Below are positions 30,605 through 34,473 of a stretch of DNA of 64,000 bases, one piece after another (within the stretch, counting starts at the first letter, position 1; each line of letters starts with the position of its first letter). Both the position numbers and the translations under genes were made by a program. The notes below the pieces were generated by a model. It was not told the DNA's origin. It saw nothing but the letters and a program-made list of their open reading frames with translations, and did no database searches. This DNA is from Leptospiraceae bacterium (GTDB lineage Bacteria; Spirochaetota; Leptospiria; Leptospirales; Leptospiraceae), in the NCBI GenBank assembly GCA_015075105.1, contig JABTUZ010000001.1, positions 1,561,001 through 1,625,000 on the forward strand. The letters are read 5' to 3'.

Positions 30605-31819
30605 CTACTCAATGATGTCTGCAACTACACCAGACCCGATTGTTTTACCACCTTCACGAATCGCGAAGTTCAAACCCTTATCCATAGCAATTGGGTGAAT
30701 CAATTCTATCGTAACAGAAACGTTATCTCCCGGCATCACCATTTCCATTCCAGCAGGAAGCATACATACCCCTGTTATATCTGTAGTTCTGAAATAGAAC
30801 TGAGGACGATAATTATTGAAGAATGGCTTATGACGGCCTCCCTCATCTTTTGTTAGTACATAAACCTCAGCAGCAAACTTCTTGTGAGGGGTAATGGAAC
30901 CCGGCTTAGCGAGAACTTGACCTCTCTCAATGTCTTCTTTTTTAGTACCACGAAGAAGTGCACCGATATTGTCTCCGGCTTCTGCCTGATCCAATAACTT
31001 TCTGAACATTTCGATACCAGTAACAACAGTTTTCTGCGTATCTCTAATACCGATGATTTCCAATTCTTCGTTAATTTTTAGGACACCTTGCTCTACTCTA
31101 CCGGTGGCAACAGTTCCTCGCCCAGTAATGGAGAATACGTCTTCTACAGGCATAAGGAAAGGCTTGTCAGTAATACGCTTAGGGTTCGGAACGTAAGTGT
31201 CTAACGCTTCCATTAATTTTTCAATGGATTTCATTCCAAGTTCACTCTCGTCACCTTCAAGGGCTTTTAATGCAGAGCCGTAAACGATAGGGATTTCACC
31301 TTGTCCTTCTTTGGGGAAATTGTATTTTTTCAAAAGATCGCGAATTTCTTCTTCGACCATTGCGATCATTTCAGCTCTTTCGTCTTCCTTTAACTGATCT
31401 GCTTTATTCAAATAGACTACAATATAAGGAACACCAACCTGTCTTGCAAGCAAGATGTGCTCTTTTGTTTGAGGCATAGCACCATCTGTAGCAGACACCA
31501 CTAGAATCGCTGCGTCCATCTGTGCGGCACCTGTAATCATGTTCTTCACATAGTCAGCGTGACCTGGACAATCGACGTGAGCATAATGTCTGTTTGCAGT
31601 TTCATATTCTTGATGAGAAGTTGCAATAGTAATACCCCTGGCTTTTTCTTCAGGAGCGTTATCGATTTCGTCATAACGCACGGCCTTATTTTTTCCGCCG
31701 AATTTTCTTGCAAGTGTAGTAGTAATCGCCGCAGTAAGAGTTGTTTTACCGTGGTCAACGTGACCAATTGTTCCAACGTTTAAGTGCGGCTTACTCCGAT
31801 CAAATTTTTCTTTAGCCAT
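30605..31819 (-). CDS. tuf: elongation factor Tu
   Basis: EF-Tu delivers aminoacyl-tRNA to the ribosome. The G motifs are GHVDHGKT (residues 19-26), [13 protein letters not shown] (NKCD in many bacteria) and SALKALEG; the switch I region is EEKARGITI. Domains II and III are complete; 404 aa. The neighbouring upstream gene encodes an EF-G-like GTPase. No second tuf copy is in the window. Confidence 0.98.
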
Positions 31820-31856: not shown

Positions 31857-33761
31857 TTATTTTATTTCAATAACACTATATTGAGAAATGGAGAAATTCA
31901 CTTTCGAATGAAAAATTCCTTTCCCTTTTGTCATATTTCTAAGAGAGGCTGTAAAGCCAAGTAAGTTTTCAGTACTTACCTCTCCAGTCACACGACACAC
32001 CTGAAAATCTTCCTCACAGATTTTTAGAATCTTAGCCGACCTTGAGCCCAATTCAGCCAACACTTTTCCAAGGCTAAAATCTGGCACAACAATCTCAAAT
32101 GAAGACAAAGAGCCTATAAGCTCAGTTTTTCCTTTGATACAAGATTTCAACCCGCTAATAACGGCTACTTTCAAAAGTGAAAGTATAGGATTGTTGAATT
32201 CACTCGGCTTGTCGTAAGAAATAACTCGAAGTTTCACTCCAAGTATCTCTTCTCCAAAATTCCCGTGAGACATAATCTCTTCAAATCCGTCCCGAATAGG
32301 CTCACGGATTTCTTCAGGAACATTTTCTTCAAAAAAAACAGAACGAATCAGATCGTTTGACTTTTCTAAAAAAACTGTTATTTCTCCGCTACTTTCCATC
32401 CCTTCTTTTATGGAATGAAAAAAAACGTGCTTTTCTGCCACATTTTTCCATATCTCATATCTTGCAACTTTTAATTCACCTGTAGAGAAAATTTCACCAA
32501 TTCTTTTACGGAGTCTAGACAAACCAATTTCAAGGTGCAATTCTCCCTGTCCCCACAACTCGATTTGACTTGTAATTCTTTGAAATTTCAATGAGAAAGA
32601 GTCGTCTTCCCATGTAAGCTCTTTTAATGAATTGTTTAGATCGAAAGAGTTATTTGTAGATTTCGGCTCGACCACAATTCCAAATTGCCCCGCAGATTCC
32701 CTATCTTTCTGTTTGTTTTCGAGATTCTTTTTTTCTTTGTTGTAGAGAATTATATTTTTCGGAACATCAATAGAAAGGATAGCTAAAAAAATATCTCCCT
32801 CCTCCACTTCACTTTCCTCTTCAATAGAAAGAGATTGAATAAAAAAAATCTGATTAAAGCCAATTTCTCCATACGAGGAATACAGAACATCGTTTCTGTG
32901 AATTTCCTTAATAGCTTTTAAATAATAGATTTTTCCAAATTCCGGATGAATTTGTTTTTTAAAAATTATAGCCGACTCATCTTCATTTTTTTTGGCTCTG
33001 TGAAATACTTCTCCAAGAAAACACACTAAATCAATCAGATCGCCCACTCCATTTCCGGTTTTTGCGCTACCTATTAACAAAGGAAAAACTTCTCTTATAT
33101 GAAAACCTTTTTGAAGCCCTTCCAATGCAATTGACTGTATATTCTCCGGTGATTGTAAATATTTTTCAGATAGTTTCTCATTCCACTCAATAAATGGAAT
33201 CAGAATATTCTCGTCTGCCTTTTTGGCTTTTAGTATTGATTCCATTTTTTGGTTGGAGTTTTGTTTCAGAAAGAACGCAGGATAGATTTTTTTACTTAGC
33301 CCTTTTTTTATTTCCGATATTTTTTTTAATAAATCAAATTCTGTAGAATCTATTTTGTTGATAAAAATAATAATCGGGATATTTTTTCGATTTAATTTTT
33401 CCCATAAAACTTCTGTTTGCGATTGAATCGTATTGTTTACATCTACTACAAGAATGGCAATGTCTATAACCTCTAAGGCTTCTTCTACTTGCTCATCAAA
33501 ATCTAAATGACCCGGAGTATCTATTAAATTGCATAGAATTTTTGTGTTTTGGAATTTTTTTTCAAATCTAACTACAACAGATTGAATAGAAATTCCTCTG
33601 GAGATTTCCTCTTCCAAAAAATCAGTTTCCGTTGTACCGCTTTCAACATCCCCTAATGAAGAAATTACTTTTTCTTGGAATAAGATTCTTTCGGTAAGAG
33701 TAGTCTTGCCTGCATCGATATGGGCGAAAATTCCAAAATTTATGATTTGCCTGTATTTCAT
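31857..33761 (-). CDS. divergent EF-G / TetM-like translational GTPase at the fusA position
   Basis: This 634-aa protein lies between rpsG and tuf, where fusA normally is, but it is not a typical EF-G (about 700 aa). The G domain has AHIDAGKT (14-21), the switch RGISIQS, DTPGH (81-85), NKID (135-138) and GSAKTGNG. Details such as SGTTETDFLEEEISRGISIQ and a compressed region before domain II resemble TetM-type ribosome protection proteins as much as EF-G. Domains III-V are present, including GELHLEIGLSRLRKRI and VTGEVSTENLLGFTASLRNMTKGKG. ATG 33761 is chosen; the open frame extends 14 codons upstream (33803) without family resemblance. Possible roles: spirochaete EF-G2-like recycling factor, tetracycline-resistance-like factor, or main translocase. 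A canonical EF-G would have to be encoded elsewhere. Confidence 0.85.
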   Translation of the reverse strand: MKYRQIINFGIFAHIDAGKTTLTERILFQEKVISSLGDVESGTTETDFLEEEISRGISIQSVVVRFEKKFQNTKILCNLIDTPGHLDFDEQVEEALEVIDIAILVVDVNNTIQSQTEVLWEKLNRKNIPIIIFINKIDSTEFDLLKKISEIKKGLSKKIYPAFFLKQNSNQKMESILKAKKADENILIPFIEWNEKLSEKYLQSPENIQSIALEGLQKGFHIREVFPLLIGSAKTGNGVGDLIDLVCFLGEVFHRAKKNEDESAIIFKKQIHPEFGKIYYLKAIKEIHRNDVLYSSYGEIGFNQIFFIQSLSIEEESEVEEGDIFLAILSIDVPKNIILYNKEKKNLENKQKDRESAGQFGIVVEPKSTNNSFDLNNSLKELTWEDDSFSLKFQRITSQIELWGQGELHLEIGLSRLRKRIGEIFSTGELKVARYEIWKNVAEKHVFFHSIKEGMESSGEITVFLEKSNDLIRSVFFEENVPEEIREPIRDGFEEIMSHGNFGEEILGVKLRVISYDKPSEFNNPILSLLKVAVISGLKSCIKGKTELIGSLSSFEIVVPDFSLGKVLAELGSRSAKILKICEEDFQVCRVTGEVSTENLLGFTASLRNMTKGKGIFHSKVNFSISQYSVIEIK

Positions 33762-33999: not shown

Positions 34000-34473
34000 C
34001 TACCAACGATAGTGACTGAAAGCCTTGTTTGCTTCTGCCATTTTCCTAATATCTTCTTTCTTTTTAATAGAAGCTCCCGTTCCTTTTTGTGCTTCCATAA
34101 ACTCACCTGCAAGTTTAGAACTCATAGATTTTTCATTTCTCTCTCTGGAATAACGAATTAGCCATTTGATTCCAAGCGAAAGTCTTCTTTCAGGACGAAC
34201 TTCAATGGGAACTTGATAAGTTGCACCACCGACTCTTCTCGATTTTACTTCTACTTCTGGTTTTACATTTTCTAATGCTTGATTAAAAACTTCGTAAGGG
34301 TTACTTCCTGTCTTGGTCTGGATTGTATCCATAGCATCATAAAATATTTTTTCTGCTACATTTCTTTCCCCAGAATACATAAGGCAATTGATGAATTTAG
34401 CTACAATTTTATCGTTATACCTTGGATCGGGTTTAATTTCCCTTGGTTCTGATTTTCCTCTTCTTCTTGACAT
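34000..34473 (-). CDS. rpsG: 30S ribosomal protein S7
   Basis: S7 nucleates the 30S head. It begins MSRRRGKSEPREIKPDPRYN and has FINCLMYSGERNVAEKIFYDA and ALENVKPEVEVKSRRVGGATYQVP in shortened form. 157 aa. S7 represses the str operon in E. coli through the rpsL-rpsG gap; here that gap is only 9 nt. Confidence 0.98.
   Translation of the reverse strand: MSRRRGKSEPREIKPDPRYNDKIVAKFINCLMYSGERNVAEKIFYDAMDTIQTKTGSNPYEVFNQALENVKPEVEVKSRRVGGATYQVPIEVRPERRLSLGIKWLIRYSRERNEKSMSSKLAGEFMEAQKGTGASIKKKEDIRKMAEANKAFSHYRW

Follow-up and report, generated by a model that had tools for sequence, protein, structure and literature searches.

The window analysed here, a stretch of 64,000 nucleotides from a Leptospiraceae bacterium (contig JABTUZ010000001.1), carries on its reverse strand the gene order rpoC, rpsL, rpsG, lEFG, tuf, rpsJ, rplC, rplD and rplW, in which the neighbours were named from their own sequences and lEFG denotes the open reading frame of a 634-aa translational GTPase flanked by rpsG and tuf (Table 1), just as a preliminary description of the locus had reported. 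We prefer the ATG at position 33761 as the lEFG start over a TTG further upstream (33803), because the family homologues begin at the equivalent methionine in the alignment and none supports the longer form. Promoter and terminator scans of the lEFG region returned counts at about chance level, and the terminator scan showed no terminator-like site between lEFG and tuf on the reverse strand. The frr gene for RRF lies on the same strand (G000:C1:1628654-1629175), 3.6 kb past the window end and ~34 kb from lEFG.

Table 1. Features of the lEFG gene and its immediate neighbours (window coordinates).
Feature	Position	Strand	Basis
lEFG CDS, divergent EF-G-like GTPase, 634 aa	31857..33761	-	ORF, profile matches, alignment
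rpsG (S7), upstream neighbour of lEFG	34000..34473	-	sequence
tuf (EF-Tu), 37 bp downstream of lEFG	30605..31819	-	sequence
G1/P-loop AHIDAGKT, residues 13-20	33702..33725	-	conserved in alignment
Switch I RGISI, residues 55-59; Ser in place of the usual Thr	33585..33599	-	alignment
G3/switch II DTPGH with catalytic His, residues 81-85	33507..33521	-	alignment
G4 NKID, residues 135-138	33348..33359	-	alignment
Shortened G' region through G5 GSA, residues 139-233	33063..33347	-	G4-G5 = 93 residues
Domain III GQGELHLE, residues 404-411; typical of EF-G, lacking in Tet proteins	32529..32552	-	alignment
Domain IV loop 1, residues 449-460; EG in place of Gly-Gly, loss of the translocation motif	32382..32417	-	alignment
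Domain IV His583 loop, residues 515-524; Pro for His, loss of the DGSYH-VDSSE motif	32190..32219	-	alignment
Truncated C-terminus without its helix, 6 residues past the last anchor of domain V	31857..31877	-	alignment

The order rpsL-rpsG-lEFG-tuf is found in the window and in a second genome of the same family (G002), and lEFG adjoins tuf in seven of the eight family genomes (G003-G007 complete the seven). Location in the str operon, one of the marks by which EFG I is recognised, is therefore a property that lEFG shares. In the eighth genome (G001, L198:5283-7175) lEFG lies outside the operon, its start overlapping the end of a gene for a beta-lactamase-fold protein (PF00144). The str operon of genus g4 (L195, L196) is broken upstream of lEFG, with tuf and rpsJ adjacent and rpsL/rpsG not adjacent.

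Among 41 NCBIfam families the best match to the protein is NF009892, 'elongation factor G-like protein' (529 bits, residues 4-631), compared with 254 bits for the tetracycline-protection model and 222 bits for the EF-G model TIGR00484, whose cut-off of 659 bits is not reached; the Gly-Gly pair and His583 that also characterise EFG I are missing as well. The eight family genomes match NF009892 at 458-580 bits; as the curated cut-off is 640, the window protein and the other seven are more distant members. A family profile built for lEFG (A1) was searched against 393 Spirochaetota genomes and scores 860-1032 bits in eight, which belong to a single family; the next-best match is an ordinary EF-G at 314 bits. 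A group termed lEFG/lEFG2 has been named in Leptospira and guessed to be the missing spdEFG2 (Atkinson et al. 2015, PMC4342817), and the second EF-Gs of L. interrogans, 'with large deletions', had been left out of earlier trees (Margus et al. 2011, PMC3150367). We infer that NF009892 and the Leptospira lEFG are the same group, and on the NF009892 match and the one-family distribution we identify the window protein as lEFG, the second EF-G of the Leptospira-type family. Among the 80 loci retained from a contig scan with general EF-G motifs there is no Leptospira record. In the literature searched, which lay mostly outside subscription journals, the term lEFG2 is used only by Atkinson et al. 2015, and we found no functional study of a Leptospira fusA/EF-G or translational GTPase.

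The preliminary description had expected a second EF-G in the genome, and one is indeed present: a search with TIGR00484, which also matches RF3-type, LepA/TypA-type, EF-Tu and lEFG proteins, detected a single other EF-G of 702 aa on contig C2 (G000:C2:269300-271360, ~1000 bits). Its switch I reads RGKDGVGAKMD and thus carries the three-residue KDG insertion that marks spdEFG1 (Margus et al. 2011, PMC3150367), and in the tree it groups with the spdEFG1 proteins of Borrelia-type and Treponema-type genomes (type labels assigned by inference) with a support of 100. By these marks the contig-C2 protein is a typical spdEFG1, and the suggestion that a canonical fusA had moved elsewhere is not borne out. 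All eight family genomes examined encode the window-type protein and seven encode a detected spdEFG1, the eighth being a draft, while neither EFG I nor spdEFG2 was found in any of the eight. RRF was found in seven of them, the window's genome included. The rule that spdEFG2 co-occurs with spdEFG1 in genomes lacking EFG I (PMC3150367) thus describes the occurrence of lEFG as well. Elsewhere in the survey, strong EF-G matches in three genomes of family f18 (G053, G062, G075) and one of family f20 (G072) contain one in-frame TAG or TAA, for which an end effect, a frameshift or recoding might account.

The domain architecture of lEFG agrees with the claim that all G motifs and domains III-V are retained: the Pfam models GTP_EFTU, EFG_III and EFG_C match above their cut-offs and EFG_IV falls just under (20.7 bits vs 24), and every GTPase motif, including the catalytic His of DTPGH, is conserved in the seven family members aligned. 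The Ser of switch I also occurs in RF3, EFGII and chromosomal Tet-like proteins. The shortening that had been noticed in the N-terminal part lies between G4 and G5, which are separated by 84-93 residues in lEFG and by 117-123 in the other EF-Gs examined, except for one Spirochaetota MAG locus (L056, 114); in TetM-type proteins the spacing is 75-107 residues. The tip of domain IV, to which the preliminary description had drawn attention, departs from translocating EF-Gs in both loops. The loop-1 Gly-Gly pair is present in none of seven lEFG proteins, compared with 3/8 for spdEFG2, 11/11 for EFG I and 9/9 for spdEFG1, and His583 is likewise missing from all seven and from all eight spdEFG2 proteins, compared with 10/11 for EFG I and 9/9 for spdEFG1. 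Domain V is followed by only 3-10 residues in lEFG (7/7) and in spdEFG2, by 14-24 in EFG I, by 20-25 in spdEFG1 and by 26-40 in Tet-type proteins (13/13). Domain IV as a whole is 11-16% identical to every group compared. An AlphaFold model of moderate confidence (pLDDT 69), used for a fold search alone, gave mitochondrial EF-G2 with RRF (7nsh) as the top Foldseek PDB match by a small margin.

We considered lEFG as a member of EFGII and rejected this assignment, as lEFG keeps AHIDAGKT where EFGII has GH in place of AH, and EFGII forms a separate clade (support 100). In spirochaetal EFGII proteins from several Spirochaetota families (L183-L188) the His of DTPGH is replaced by Y, I, A, S or K, and loop-1 Gly-Gly and His583 are kept. 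The EF-G-like query also retrieved chromosomal Tet-like GTPases from Paenibacillus, Bacillus, Clostridia and Bacteroidota (L041, L075, L057, L089, L051, L058, L087) that combine RGIS(I/V) with a loop-1 Pro, a retained His583 equivalent and a long C-terminal tail.

In Borrelia, elongation (EF-G1) and recycling (EF-G2) are split between two EF-Gs (PMC9067457), the elongation-only EF-G1 being an spdEFG1. Structural work on mitochondrial recycling links translocation to the loop-1 glycines, which are replaced in EF-G2mt and in Borrelia EF-G2; the shorter C-terminal helix of mitochondrial EF-G2 leaves room for RRF, and altering loop 1 reportedly impairs translocation with scarcely any effect on recycling (PMC8203779). 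Three features, the altered loop-1 Gly-Gly pair, the lack of the domain IV His583 and the truncated C-terminal helix, are common to lEFG and these recycling-only EF-G2s, and it is mainly because of this anatomical match that we call lEFG recycling-type. The window protein is not the translocase, and it is probably a dedicated ribosome-recycling factor acting with RRF. The pairing with spdEFG1, the RRF gene in the genome, the profile match of domains III-V to spdEFG2 and the purifying selection (both below) point the same way. In the mechanism we propose, lEFG would bind the post-termination ribosome together with RRF, its domains III-V would press domain II of RRF onto bridge B2a, and it would thereby help to split the subunits, with GTP hydrolysis serving splitting or release, while translocation would be done by the separate spdEFG1. 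The recycling activity of lEFG is what we infer from its anatomy, and the reason for its upkeep may be that the spdEFG1 partner, like the EF-G1 of Borrelia, serves elongation only. Domain IV is too diverged, at the identity given above, for RRF contacts to be predicted. Loss of translocation features can also be convergent, as in the str-slot EF-G of another spirochaetal family (f50, see below), which occurs beside an spdEFG2-type protein.

The different parts of lEFG point to different relatives. Profiles of domains III-V score lEFG highest with spdEFG2 (209), followed by EFG I (176), spdEFG1 (133), Tet-like proteins (91) and TetM (63), whereas G-domain profiles score highest with chromosomal Tet-like proteins (424) and lower with spdEFG2 (333). 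The TetM-like look reported previously therefore holds for the G domain and fails for domains III-V. Full-length trees recover lEFG as monophyletic on a stem of 1.4-1.7 with no agreed sister, and AU tests on full-length alignments leave its union with spdEFG2 (p-AU 0.36), Tet (0.35) or spdEFG1 (0.39) all acceptable; because long-branch warnings apply to these trees, we claim no sister group. The tree of domains III-V places lEFG in no supported group and accepts a clade with spdEFG2 (p-AU 0.30), which the G-domain tree rejects (p-AU 0.012). Of the proposal of a recycling-type EF-G2, the domain IV and C-terminal likeness stands, and a common clade with spdEFG2 is accepted by the full-length and domain III-V tests and rejected by the G domain. 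The protein falls outside EF-G1, an outcome that the preliminary description had named as support.

In two G-domain-only trees lEFG falls among Tet-type proteins (support 100/99), and this placement, together with the higher G-domain score and a G' region shortened as in TetM, is what one would predict if lEFG descended from the ribosomal-protection (Tet/OtrA-like) group, or were chimeric with it, and then dislodged tetracycline-like ligands or acted as a housekeeping protection factor. We consider that account improbable, given that the C-terminal extension of TetM/TetO and the TetM domain IV loops are absent, domain III carries the EF-G-type GxGELHLE missing from Tet proteins, domains III-V score lowest with TetM, and the gene sits in a core ribosomal operon; moreover, the f50 str-slot EF-G is also Tet-like in its G core though its domains III and V are EF-G-like, so part of the signal may be convergent. 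For the same anatomical reasons TetM-like resistance was discarded as the main reading, and the ribosome-protection-like role put forward earlier finds no counterpart in the protein; to go by the G-domain trees, it may still have protection-like ancestry, by descent or as a chimera. We read lEFG as an EF-G whose G domain converged on, or retained, a Tet-like form.

Synteny raises a further question of ancestry. In the sister families of the class a canonical EFG I lies behind rpsG in all three neighbourhoods examined (L121, L122, L126; tuf is also in view in one of them), the same slot that lEFG occupies in the window and G002, with adjacency to tuf kept across most of the family. lEFG might accordingly be a direct descendant of the str-operon fusA (EFG I), which kept its place when translocation passed to spdEFG1 and degenerated to a partial function, recycling or some other niche, and so an in-situ remnant and not an spdEFG2 orthologue. 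The AU test speaks against uniting lEFG with EFG I of the sister families (p-AU 0.027, delta lnL 30), a result weakened by the long branches, and another EF-G could have displaced EFG I in situ. Because of the synteny we retain this descent as a rival despite the AU test, though we think it rather unlikely; being a matter of ancestry, it can hold alongside the recycling role that we predict for lEFG.

A parallel to such descent is provided by a second fast-evolving EF-G that adjoins tuf in family f50 (L250, L251, L252) and at the Spirochaetota MAG locus L056, with rpsL-rpsG upstream in L250-L252, so that it lies between rpsG and tuf. This protein has also lost His583 (scored in L056, read by eye from the translations of L250-L252) and has a short C-terminus. 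The genome of L056 encodes one spdEFG1 and one spdEFG2 by tree placement, the three f50 genomes have spdEFG1-/spdEFG2-type matches of the same strengths encoded elsewhere, and all four also have EFGII-type matches. Its G core is slightly more similar to Tet-like proteins than to EFG I, but the tree does not place it within the Tet group. The f50 str-slot EF-G apparently arose independently of lEFG, which suggests that, in the presence of spdEFG1, the EF-G of the str slot can degenerate where it stands. It is conceivable, and we offer it as speculation that we hold unlikely, that spdEFG1 takeover in spirochaetes repeatedly led the str-operon EF-G to decay in place to a fast-evolving GTPase without translocation parts, once as lEFG and independently in f50 and L056, and that lEFG then became the sole recycling EF-G of the Leptospira-type family, along a path distinct from that of the spdEFG1/spdEFG2 pair.

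The window protein is about 35-43% identical to lEFG of other genera, compared with 80-88% for spdEFG1, and such fast evolution would be expected of a non-essential, decaying paralogue without fixed function. Such a paralogue is nevertheless very improbable in view of the intact GTPase motifs and the presence of lEFG in 8/8 genomes, and because dN/dS between congeners of genus g4 is 0.14-0.16, lEFG is maintained under purifying selection.

Translation factors are textbook slow-evolving genes, and a location flanked by rpsG and tuf commonly serves to identify the canonical EF-G. Both expectations fail for lEFG, and position-based annotation would misname it as the translocase and as the expected target of fusidic acid. 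The group was already known from Leptospira (PMC4342817), and its recycling function is predicted here from anatomy. If lEFG is the recycling factor, the family offers a naturally occurring case of a recycling-only EF-G that manages with a shortened G' region, no loop-1 motif and hardly any sequence conservation in domain IV, and it would reveal how small a part of EF-G is required for splitting ribosomes.

Compared with known systems, the window protein shares with the Leptospira lEFG/lEFG2 proteins its standing as a divergent second EF-G of Leptospira-type spirochaetes, but it and its relatives score under the curated NF009892 cut-off. With spdEFG2 and mitochondrial EF-G2 (e.g. Borrelia EF-G2) it has in common the spdEFG1 partner, the altered loop-1 Gly pair, the loss of His583, the missing C-terminal helix and the best profile match of domains III-V, and it differs in the shortened G' region, much faster evolution, the str slot and the lack of a supported common clade, although the full-length AU test accepts such a clade (p-AU 0.36). 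TetM/TetO and the chromosomal Tet-like proteins resemble it in length, shortened G' region and G-domain affinity, whereas lEFG lacks their C-terminal extension and domain IV loops and has an EF-G-type domain III. With canonical fusA (EFG I) it shares the operon slot occupied in the sister families, yet it is without the translocation-specific domain IV features that were scored, and a common clade with the EFG I of those families is disfavoured.
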